Assembly: GCF_014083985.1 (NCBI RefSeq)
Contig: NZ_CP046907.1
Span: 1,654,001-1,718,000, forward strand
Source: Streptomyces sp. SCUT-3
GTDB taxonomy: Bacteria; Actinomycetota; Actinomycetes; Streptomycetales; Streptomycetaceae
Length of the DNA: 64,000 nucleotides
Reading direction: 5' to 3'
Made by a program: the position numbers and the translations under genes. This document shows positions 45,652 through 57,851 of this stretch, one piece after another (position 1 is the stretch's first letter; each line of letters starts with the position of its first letter). The notes beneath the pieces were generated by a model. It did no database searches and was not told where the DNA came from. It was given only the letters and a program-made list of their open reading frames with translations.

Positions 45652-47247
45652 TCACTCGGTGGGCAGCACCCCTGCGCGGATGAGGCCGTAGGTGTAGGCG
45701 TCCTCCAGGGCCTGCCAGGAGGCGGCGATGACGTTGGGGCCGACGCCGACCGTCGACCACTCGCCGCTGCCGTCGCTGGTCTCCACCAGCACCCGGGTCA
45801 CGGACTCGGTGCCGCGCCTCCCCTCCAGGATGCGGACCTTGTAGTCCACCAGCTCCAGCTTCGCCAGCTGAGGGAAGATCCGCTCCAGGGCCACCCGCAG
45901 CGCCCTGTCCAGGGCGTTGACGGGGCCGTTGCCCTCGCCGGTGGCGACGATCCGCTCCCCCTTGGCCCACAGCTTCACGGTCGCCTCGTTGGCGTGCGAG
46001 CCGTCCGGGCGCTCCTCGACGATGGCGCGCCAGGACTCGGGCCGGAAGAACCGCTCCCGGCGGCCGGCGACCTCGTCGCGCAGCAGCAGCTCGAAGGAGG
46101 CGTCGGCGGCCTCGTAGGTGTAGCCGGCGTTCTCCCGCTCCTTGACCCTGGCGACGACGCGGCCGAGGAGGTCGCGGTCGGACAGGTCGTAGCCGAGCTC
46201 CTTGCCCTTGAGCTCGATCGAGGCGCGGCCGGCCATGTCGGAGACCAGCATCCGCATGCTGTTGCCGACGAGTTCGGGGGTGATGTGCTGGTACAGGTCG
46301 GGGTCGACCTTGATGGCCGAGGCGTGCAGCCCGGCCTTGTGGGCGAAGGCGGAGACGCCCACGTAGGGCTGGTGGGTGGAGGGCGCCAGGTTGACGACCT
46401 CGGCGATCGCGTGGGAGATCCGGGTCATCTCGGCGAGGCAGCCCTCGGGCAGCACCCGCCGGCCGTACTTGAGCTCCAGGGCGGCGACGACGGGGAAGAG
46501 GTTGGCGTTGCCGACGCGCTCGCCGTAGCCGTTGGCCGTGCACTGGACGTGGGTCGCGCCGGCGTCGACGGCGGCCAGGGTGTTGGCCACGGCGCAGCCG
46601 GTGTCGTCCTGGGCGTGGATGCCCAGGCGCGCCCCGGTACGGGCCAGCACCTGCGCCACGACGTCCCGGACCTCTCCGGGGAGCATGCCGCCGTTGGTGT
46701 CGCACAGCACCACCACGTCCGCGCCGGCCCCGTGCGCGGCGCGCACCACGGCCTCGGCGTACTCGGCGTCGGCCCGGTGCCCGTCGAAGAAGTGCTCGCA
46801 GTCCACGAAGACCCGGCGCCCCTGCTCCCGCAGGTGGCGGACGGTGTCGCGGACCATCTCGAGGTTCTCCTCGAGGGTGGTGCGCAGGGCGAGTTCGACG
46901 TGCCGGTCGTGGGACTTGGCGACCAGGGTGATCACCGGGGCCCCGCTGGCCAGGAGCGCCTTGACCTGGGGGTCCTCGGCCGCGGTGGTGCCGGCCCTGC
47001 GGGTGGCGCCGAAGGCCACGAGCTGCGCGTGCTTCAGGTCGAGTTCGGTGGCGGCCCGGGCGAAGAACTCGGTGTCCCGCGGGTTGGCGCCCGGCCAGCC
47101 GCCCTCGATGAAGCCCACGCCGAAGTCGTCCAGGTGGCGGGCGATCGTGAGCTTGTCCGCCACGGTCAGGTTGATGCCCTCGCGCTGTGCGCCGTCGCGC
47201 AGCGTGGTGTCGAAGACATGGAAGCTGTCGTCGGGTGCGGCCGTCAT
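45652..47247 (-). CDS. cimA: (R)-citramalate synthase
   Basis: 531 aa. HMGL-like TIM barrel (about 8-280): FHVFDTTLRDGAQREGINLT (catalytic Arg and metal Asp), VVLCDTNGGMLPGEVRDVV, GIHAQDDTGCAVANTLAAV (metal His), TANGYGERVGNANLFPVVAA. C-terminal LeuA-like dimer/regulatory domain (about 400-525) with DYKVRILEGRRGTESVTRVL. It condenses pyruvate and acetyl-CoA to citramalate, feeding 2-ketobutyrate and isoleucine without threonine. The length and segments distinguish it from 2-isopropylmalate synthase. Its leader has an Ile-Ile leader peptide and a terminator, suggesting attenuation by isoleucyl-tRNA. Confidence 0.95.
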   Translation of the reverse strand: MTAAPDDSFHVFDTTLRDGAQREGINLTVADKLTIARHLDDFGVGFIEGGWPGANPRDTEFFARAATELDLKHAQLVAFGATRRAGTTAAEDPQVKALLASGAPVITLVAKSHDRHVELALRTTLEENLEMVRDTVRHLREQGRRVFVDCEHFFDGHRADAEYAEAVVRAAHGAGADVVVLCDTNGGMLPGEVRDVVAQVLARTGARLGIHAQDDTGCAVANTLAAVDAGATHVQCTANGYGERVGNANLFPVVAALELKYGRRVLPEGCLAEMTRISHAIAEVVNLAPSTHQPYVGVSAFAHKAGLHASAIKVDPDLYQHITPELVGNSMRMLVSDMAGRASIELKGKELGYDLSDRDLLGRVVARVKERENAGYTYEAADASFELLLRDEVAGRRERFFRPESWRAIVEERPDGSHANEATVKLWAKGERIVATGEGNGPVNALDRALRVALERIFPQLAKLELVDYKVRILEGRRGTESVTRVLVETSDGSGEWSTVGVGPNVIAASWQALEDAYTYGLIRAGVLPTE

Positions 47248-47366: not shown

Positions 47367-47393
47367 AAAAAACCTCTCGCGGGTGCGAGAGGT
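47367..47393 (-). terminator. Transcription attenuator in the cimA leader
   Basis: On the minus strand acctctcgc-accc-gcgagaggt, 9-bp stem, followed by six T residues (47372-47367): the only classic U-tract terminator in the window besides the one before ilvB. It lies 119 bp before the cimA start, downstream of the leader peptide. Confidence 0.85.
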
Positions 47394-47425
47394 CTGCGCG
47401 CGGGTCGGGGGCTTCGTGTCCGCTT

Positions 47426-47444
47426 CCGCACCGGTCGGGTGCGG
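47426..47444 (-). promoter_or_regulatory. Upstream hairpin of the cimA attenuator
   Basis: ccgcacc/ggtgcgg, 7-bp stem, loop of five, between the leader peptide stop and the terminator. It could be the pause or anti-terminator element. Confidence 0.5.
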
Positions 47445-47451
47445 GGAGCGG

Positions 47452-47487
47452 TCACTGCGGACCGGCGCGCCTGCTGCCGATAATCAT
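47452..47487 (-). CDS. cimA leader peptide MIIGSRRAGPQ
   Basis: Eleven codons from ATG 47487 to TGA 47452-47454. Two isoleucine codons (ATT ATC) follow the start. No strong ribosome site is seen. It stops eight bases before the first hairpin of the cimA leader, the geometry expected for ribosome-dependent attenuation. Confidence 0.6.
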   Translation of the reverse strand: MIIGSRRAGPQ

Positions 47488-47691
47488 GGCGAACGAGGAC
47501 ACGAGGGGCAGTCTGCCACAGAGGCCGCCGGCCGCCGCACGGCGTCTCAGGATGCGAACGGCGGTCCCGCGGGCCGGATGCACGCGTCCGCGCGTCCGGC
47601 CCGCGCCGCTCCTCGACCGCCCGGCCGGCCCGGCCCGCCCGGCCCGCGGGTACGGGCGCGGGCTCGGACCGGGCAGGGCCGGGGCCGGGGC

Positions 47692-57717: not shown

Positions 57718-57736
57718 TCAAAGGGTTCGGTGCAAC

Positions 57737-57770
57737 AAAAAACCCCTCGTGCCGAATGGCAGGCGAGGGG
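57737..57770 (-). terminator. Attenuator of the ilvB operon
   Basis: cccctcg-cc-tgcc-attc-ggca-cgagggg on the minus strand followed by six T (57742-57737). It stands between the leader peptide and ilvB, 90 bp before the ilvB start. Confidence 0.85.
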
Positions 57771-57809
57771 GGCGCGTCAGCTGCGGTCAAGGGGCGGGAA
57801 GGGCCCGGA

Positions 57810-57851
57810 TCAGCCGACGCGCTGTCCAATTACGAGAAGTCGGGTGCGCAT
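57810..57851 (-). CDS. ilvB leader peptide MRTRLLVIGQRVG
   Basis: Thirteen codons, ATG 57851 to TGA, with AGGAGGAAGG about ten bases upstream. It contains Leu-Leu-Val-Ile, the regulatory codons expected for attenuation by branched-chain aminoacyl-tRNAs. Similar ilvB leaders (MRTRILV...) have been predicted in other actinomycetes. Confidence 0.8.
   Translation of the reverse strand: MRTRLLVIGQRVG

Follow-up and report, generated by a model that had tools for sequence, protein, structure and literature searches.

The question raised by this locus is whether the region that separates cimA from ilvE is a leader through which cimA could respond to isoleucine, as an earlier note on the sequence had proposed, and, if so, by what arrangement of codons and hairpins. 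In the window, i.e. the whole stretch of 64,000 nt that was analysed, the minus strand carries ilvB (57560-55833), serA, leuB, ilvE, and cimA in this order. The cimA leader lies on the minus strand between the stop codon of ilvE (47692) and the start codon of cimA (47247), and ilvE, which is encoded on this strand as well, is situated 444 nt upstream. The identification of cimA as the gene for citramalate synthase was confirmed by TIGR00977 (623 bits; cut-off, 450), and all of the parts that had been claimed for its leader are present on the minus strand where they had been placed. The features of the region are as follows.

47510-47518, minus strand: extended -10 promoter element (TGG-CAGACT), recognized by its sequence and by its conservation before the uORF start.
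47452-47502, minus strand: short upstream ORF (uORF) MSSFAMIIGSRRAGPQ, with a GTG start at 47502 and a TGA stop at 47454-47452, probably leaderless; the start is conserved across relatives.
47479-47484, minus strand: control codons AUU AUC (Ile-Ile), conserved in the leaders of relatives.
47460-47470, minus strand: 5' arm of the P1 hairpin, GCGCGCCGGTC, with covariation in 7 of 10 pairs.
47426-47444, minus strand: 7-bp hairpin CCGCACC/GGTGCGG, a variable, non-conserved insert within P1.
47396-47406, minus strand: 3' arm of the P1 hairpin, GACCCGCGCGC, which abuts the terminator and is marked by covariation and by a spacing of 0 nt in 186 of 200 leaders.
47367-47395, minus strand: intrinsic terminator T, AGACCTCTCGC-ACCC-GCGAGAGGTTT plus a U-tract, recognized by its sequence, by covariation, and by a terminator scan.
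45652-47247, minus strand: cimA, citramalate synthase, the gene predicted to be under regulation.

The leader RNA is strongly structured, with a folding z-score of -5.4 that was equalled by none of 200 shuffled sequences, and a terminator scan identified one terminator compared with 0.1 expected. The T hairpin (47395-47370) contains 9 strong base pairs, or 11 when A-U and G-U pairs are included, and is accompanied by a T-run (47372-47367); the distance from the terminator to the ATG of cimA is 119 nt. The earlier note had described an 11-codon ORF, MIIGSRRAGPQ, starting at ATG 47487. This reading and its stop codon do exist, but the conserved start is GTG 47502, located 15 nt farther upstream and just 3' of the extended -10 element, and the uORF therefore comprises 16 codons, with ATG 47487 being internal to it. 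The 7-bp hairpin to which the note had drawn attention is likewise present but lacks conservation and lies inside P1, a hairpin that the note had missed; owing to its position in the variable interior of P1, it was rejected as the regulatory partner of the terminator. A palindrome, GGCGCGCC, occurs in the 5' arm of P1 (47471-47464 on the minus strand of the window) and in most of the leaders from L001 to L171, and is so far explained only by the hairpin.

Upstream regions of cimA were gathered from the window's own family and class, together with those of named genomes, mostly Streptomyces; the closest named relatives are ~87% identical in CimA, which points to a Streptomycetaceae-like genome as the source of the window. 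Of 209 regions searched by script, 200 yielded the leader, and 198 leaders were used for statistics after two calls judged to be wrong had been left out; some genomes are represented twice, and the counts thus refer to sequences and not to independent events. In this comparison, which the earlier note had itself proposed, the Ile codons proved to be the most conserved part of the uORF and the terminator was found to be kept. Ile-Ile is present in 179 of the 198 leaders, and the remaining 19 keep one Ile at this site (IM, MI, IT, IN, or IS); these single-codon leaders count against the attenuator reading. The spacer between the second Ile codon and P1 measures 5-8 nt in 192 of 200 leaders, and the 3' base of P1 (~10 bp) directly adjoins T, whereas the length of the P1 interior ranges from 3 to 76 nt. 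Of the 198 leaders, 154 have an extended -10 element (TGN plus a CANACT-type hexamer) ahead of the uORF start, at a distance of 6-8 nt in 152 and of exactly 6 nt in 129. This spacing places the start codon at approximately position +1, indicating from sequence that the uORF is probably leaderless, in agreement with the mapped leader peptides of S. lividans, which are leaderless (PMC8079986). With a conserved extended -10 element directly upstream of the uORF start, nothing indicates that transcription begins downstream of the leader. The codon preceding Ile-Ile, i.e. the position of the ATG proposed earlier, encodes Met in 93 of the 179 Ile-Ile leaders and mostly Leu, Val, or Thr in the others. 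Several Streptomycetaceae (L144, L147, L149, L155, L157, L159, and L160) have a short leader with a short P1 interior and peptide tails such as SCSAQV or SCSAPV, which resembles the form found in other families.

Both helices are supported by covariation. In an alignment of 46 diverse leader sequences (A1), double-sided changes were detected in the 7 pairs of P1 noted above and in 6 of the 11 pairs of T. The number of double-change cells was 61, compared with 15.9 in shuffled data and 0-5 when the structure was slid, and none of 500 shuffles reached the observed values. RNAalifold recovered the P1 and T helices unprompted, and the column 30-97 pair of the alignment is mostly unpaired (a mismatch in Streptomycetaceae). 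The covariance model R1 matched 100 of 100 loci (L001-L100), 92 of 100 cimA upstream regions (L111-L210, among which L181 ends early at its contig end), and 8 of 11 further regions from the class; the 46 sequences of the model lie within the tallied sets, and these tallies describe conservation and are not an independent test. The earlier reading had been staked on conservation of the leader ORF and terminator, and the element indeed lies upstream of cimA in all tested members of the family and in most of the cimA-carrying members of the class. R1 gave no match in the regions upstream of three divergent cimA paralogues (L246-L248), which are second copies, 61-64% identical, carried by three genomes. 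Genome G099 contains one cimA copy with the leader (L249) and one without it (L175). A scan of the whole genome for the element returned one site; its first pass was confined to 150 candidates, the ilvB leader described below escaped it, and the scan is thus not exhaustive. At the level of sequence, the uORF, its Ile codons, P1, T, the fixed spacings, and their conservation are established, and the element appears to be ancient and distributed class-wide in actinobacteria.

The choice of Ile codon is also distinctive. AUU accounts for 170 of the 200 leader Ile codons (85%) but for only 10 of 2,017 (0.5%) in the associated cimA genes, and for 2 of 85 Ile codons in the genes of the window. AUU may be decoded more slowly, and two slow codons may suffice for stalling; the objection that two Ile codons are few is eased by this strong use of a rare codon. 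The peptide following the Ile codons is not conserved (GSRRAGPQ, GSSAPVRSGH, TACAPAPEQR, or a bare G or T before the stop codon), and P1 is not tied to one reading frame of the uORF but occurs in all three. These two features indicate that selection acts on the codons and the RNA and not on the peptide, and a conserved arrest peptide was rejected on the same grounds.

The position of the ribosome relative to P1 was evaluated by assuming that a ribosome covers ~12 nt from the first base of the A-site codon. A ribosome holding the first Ile codon in its A site leaves the P1 5' arm entirely free in 180 of 198 leaders, and one holding the second Ile codon there mostly covers 1-3 nt of this arm. 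The stop codon of the uORF is located at the 5' base of P1 or inside P1 in 197 of 198 leaders, and once the ribosome has reached this codon, the 5' arm is covered completely in 157 leaders and to at least approximately half in 193. P1 would thus be free during an Ile stall and covered when isoleucine is plentiful, which is the position expected of an ON-state hairpin, and on this coverage model P1 is probably the antiterminator.

Taken together, the comparison of sequences gives good support to the view that the cimA leader is a real, conserved, isoleucine-coded attenuator with a putative regulatory function. It is likely a ribosome-mediated transcription attenuator that ties cimA to charged tRNA-Ile, with P1 serving as the ON-state hairpin. 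In this mechanism, the leaderless uORF would be translated once its 5' end emerges. When isoleucine is plentiful, the ribosome would clear both Ile codons, reach the stop codon, and cover the 5' arm of P1; with P1 blocked, the abutting T would fold and transcription would end before cimA. When Ile-tRNA is short, the ribosome would wait at AUU/AUC with its front edge just before P1, allowing P1 to fold, T to fail, and cimA to be transcribed. P1 could act by steric hindrance, i.e. a 10-bp helix joined to T without a linker would keep the base of T from being completed in the RNA exit channel. We infer the stalling on Ile, the ON-state role of P1, and its steric action from the geometry of the leader: the strict zero-nt junction together with the free P1 interior suggests that P1 acts through its position, either as a rigid helix at the base of T or, possibly, by pulling the stalled ribosome against T.

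The components expected of an attenuator are present, namely a short, putatively translated ORF with codons for the end product, an intrinsic terminator between this uORF and cimA, and a second conserved hairpin, P1, whose dependence on ribosome position is indicated by covariation, coverage geometry, and masked folds. A uORF with branched-chain codons, a hairpin adjacent to T, and a downstream gene for branched-chain biosynthesis are also the components of the ilvB type. The earlier note had called the layout classical, and this description did not hold, as folding revealed no antiterminator that shares bases with T. Attenuation as such is supported by the class-wide conservation, albeit with a corrected ORF start, a different hairpin partner, and a non-classical geometry.

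This geometry bears directly on a classical trp-type attenuator, in which the stalled ribosome would let a separate antiterminator pair with the 5' arm of T, P1 being an anti-antiterminator or a pause hairpin. Such a family is known in actinobacteria, including the three-hairpin model of C. glutamicum ilvBNC, in which the antiterminator and terminator share three bases; several pairing registers would be available to the GGUC/GACC repeats of Streptomycetaceae, and T varies less in its 5' arm than in its 3' arm, which could reflect a second pairing partner. Folding with ribosome masks at the first Ile codon, the second Ile codon, and the stop codon (full and partial transcripts of 29 diverse leaders; a purely thermodynamic calculation), however, revealed no other conserved segment with which the 5' arm of T could pair, and the GGUC/GACC registers, when scanned by eye for a 2:3 antiterminator, yielded only weak, non-conserved pairings. 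Neither a base-sharing antiterminator nor control codons within the first stem were found: P1 and T have no base in common, a ribosome positioned on the Ile codons is upstream of P1 and leaves it unmasked, which is the opposite of the trp geometry, and short leaders (e.g. L178 and L196) contain almost nothing but P1 and T. A trp-type mechanism is therefore rather improbable. The masked folds also show T forming in silico at every ribosome position (mean pair probability of ~0.8 for L001), and base pairing alone thus does not make P1 and T mutually exclusive. A solution that requires no base-sharing antiterminator is that P1 loops the RNA out, such that the Ile-stalled ribosome sits against T and RNA polymerase and blocks T folding, as a nearby ribosome blocks terminator folding in E. 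coli pyrBI. The fixed outer spacings (Ile to P1 and P1 to T) around a P1 interior of highly variable length are compatible with this tethering, and it predicts termination without translation, as in C. glutamicum ilvBNC. P1 would, however, have to persist beside the ribosome and the polymerase simultaneously; we regard tethering as unlikely, though less so than the trp-type mechanism. The steric-helix and tethering forms make different predictions for an untranslated leader. When the start codon of the C. glutamicum ilvBNC uORF is lost, expression falls by 80% (PMC11857589), whereas the simplest model in which P1 blocks T predicts readthrough in the absence of translation, and this result thus speaks, by analogy, against the simplest steric model. 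In addition, mutations of candidate control codons in the S. coelicolor ilvB leader were reportedly without effect on regulation (cited in PMC1262725), which also counts against the attenuator reading in Streptomyces.

Two further explanations were considered. T might merely end the upstream ilvE transcript, the small ORF being incidental, and the location of ilvE on the same strand is such that T could also stop its readthrough; the conserved promoter, uORF, and Ile codons before T, the covarying P1, the fixed spacing, and the retention of the leader where the upstream neighbourhood differs make this account highly improbable. Alternatively, a structured leader before an amino-acid gene could sense isoleucine or some other ligand as a riboswitch or T-box, and actinobacterial ileS genes do carry T-boxes (PMC1262725). 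The P1 interior, however, shows no conservation, and those unpaired bases that are conserved form codons; moreover, Rfam covariance models gave no match to the cimA leader at the gathering score and none that was meaningful at E-values up to 1, and a T-box, riboswitch, or other Rfam family was rejected on that basis. Among the explanations considered, this is the least probable.

The attenuator reading of cimA gains a wider context from a second leader in the window.

57734-57851, minus strand: leader with the layout of the cimA leader, located before ilvB and consisting of the uORF MRTRLLVIGQRVG (57851-57810), P1, and an adjacent terminator, identified by model R1.

R1 matched this leader at 57734-57839 (32.8 bits; E-value, 2e-8), its folding z-score is -3.8, and its two hairpins are 1 nt apart; the gene was assigned as ilvB by TIGR00118. 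The control codons of this leader include CUU, GUA, and AUU. In other Actinomycetota, where gene names were assigned by reading translations, R1 detected the order control codons, one codon, UAG, P1, and T before leuA and ilvB. In another class, a Leu-Leu-Leu layout (L223:1501-1576, minus strand) precedes a leuA-like gene, for which tblastn was also used (27% identity to CimA), and at L224, L225, L226, L230, L233, and L235-L239, Leu/Val/Ile runs (e.g. LVLIT* and LLVVVT*), together with a P1-like hairpin and a terminator downstream of them, precede ilvB or ilvB operons. Some of these operons start with a small gene or an isochorismatase-like gene. A weaker match (L228:1501-1580, minus strand) lies before an isocitrate lyase-like gene, with a uORF ending in FVAIA*, and may represent chance or a further use of the layout; weak matches in the phylum (e.g. 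L232, L234, and L240), which may be chance terminators, were left out. Tentatively, these leaders could represent an attenuator design, widespread in actinobacteria, whose antiterminator and T have no base in common: a 10-bp hairpin joined to T without a linker would block it sterically or hold the stalled ribosome against it, and a terminating ribosome would turn the hairpin off, with Ile codons serving cimA, Leu codons leuA, and Leu/Val/Ile codons ilvB; we consider this generalization possible but less probable than not.

If the attenuator reading is correct, a dedicated isoleucine sensor would govern the first committed step of isoleucine synthesis via citramalate in much of the Actinomycetes, and cimA would be a control point that matters for providing polyketides and other products with branched-chain precursors. 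The fixed zero-nt junction between hairpin and terminator, combined with a ribosome at the stop codon, would provide a simple, testable alternative to the textbook model of overlapping hairpins, and the same geometry might bear on the paradoxical results of codon mutations in the Streptomyces ilvB leader.

In the trp and his attenuators of enterobacteria, the position of the ribosome on the control codons decides between hairpins, and these codons lie inside stem 1. The control codons of the cimA leader are instead separated by 5-8 nt from P1, which lies downstream of them, and folding yielded no overlapping 2:3 pairing. The type of attenuator to which the cimA leader would belong, i.e. the actinobacterial uORF attenuators with branched-chain codons, is known, and as far as we have searched it is new for cimA, as the earlier note had surmised. 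The open-access literature searched contains no description of a cimA attenuator, an absence that does not prove novelty, and neither the list of eight attenuators in S. lividans (PMC8079986) nor the 2005 survey of actinobacteria (PMC1262725) includes one. Other RNA elements that control genes for branched-chain amino acids in this phylum are the LEU element and T-boxes, but the LEU element is a leuA pseudoknot without a terminator and the ileS T-boxes are translational (PMC1262725), whereas the cimA leader has no Rfam T-box match. Closer to the cimA leader is that of Streptomyces ilvBHC, represented by ilvL of S. lividans TK24 (MRTRILVLGKRVG), which also has a short uORF with branched-chain codons and a P1-like hairpin adjoining the terminator, and whose homologue in the window was detected by the cimA model; ilvL differs in its mixed Leu/Val/Ile codons and in the gene that it precedes. 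The Corynebacterium ilvBNC leader (ilvB-II motif) similarly combines a uORF containing branched-chain codons with an antiterminator adjoining the terminator (PMC11857589, PMC10272879), but there the two hairpins share a GCC trinucleotide and an additional anti-antiterminator is present, whereas P1 and T of cimA share no base. The logic proposed here for cimA is also that of M. tuberculosis ilvB1, whose uORF contains LVVI and in which a terminating ribosome has been proposed, with reporter support, to mask an anti-terminator that is allowed to form when the ribosome stalls (PMC13236596); that attenuator regulates ilvB1NC, its structures are described as mutually exclusive, and its likeness to the cimA leader is drawn from that published description.
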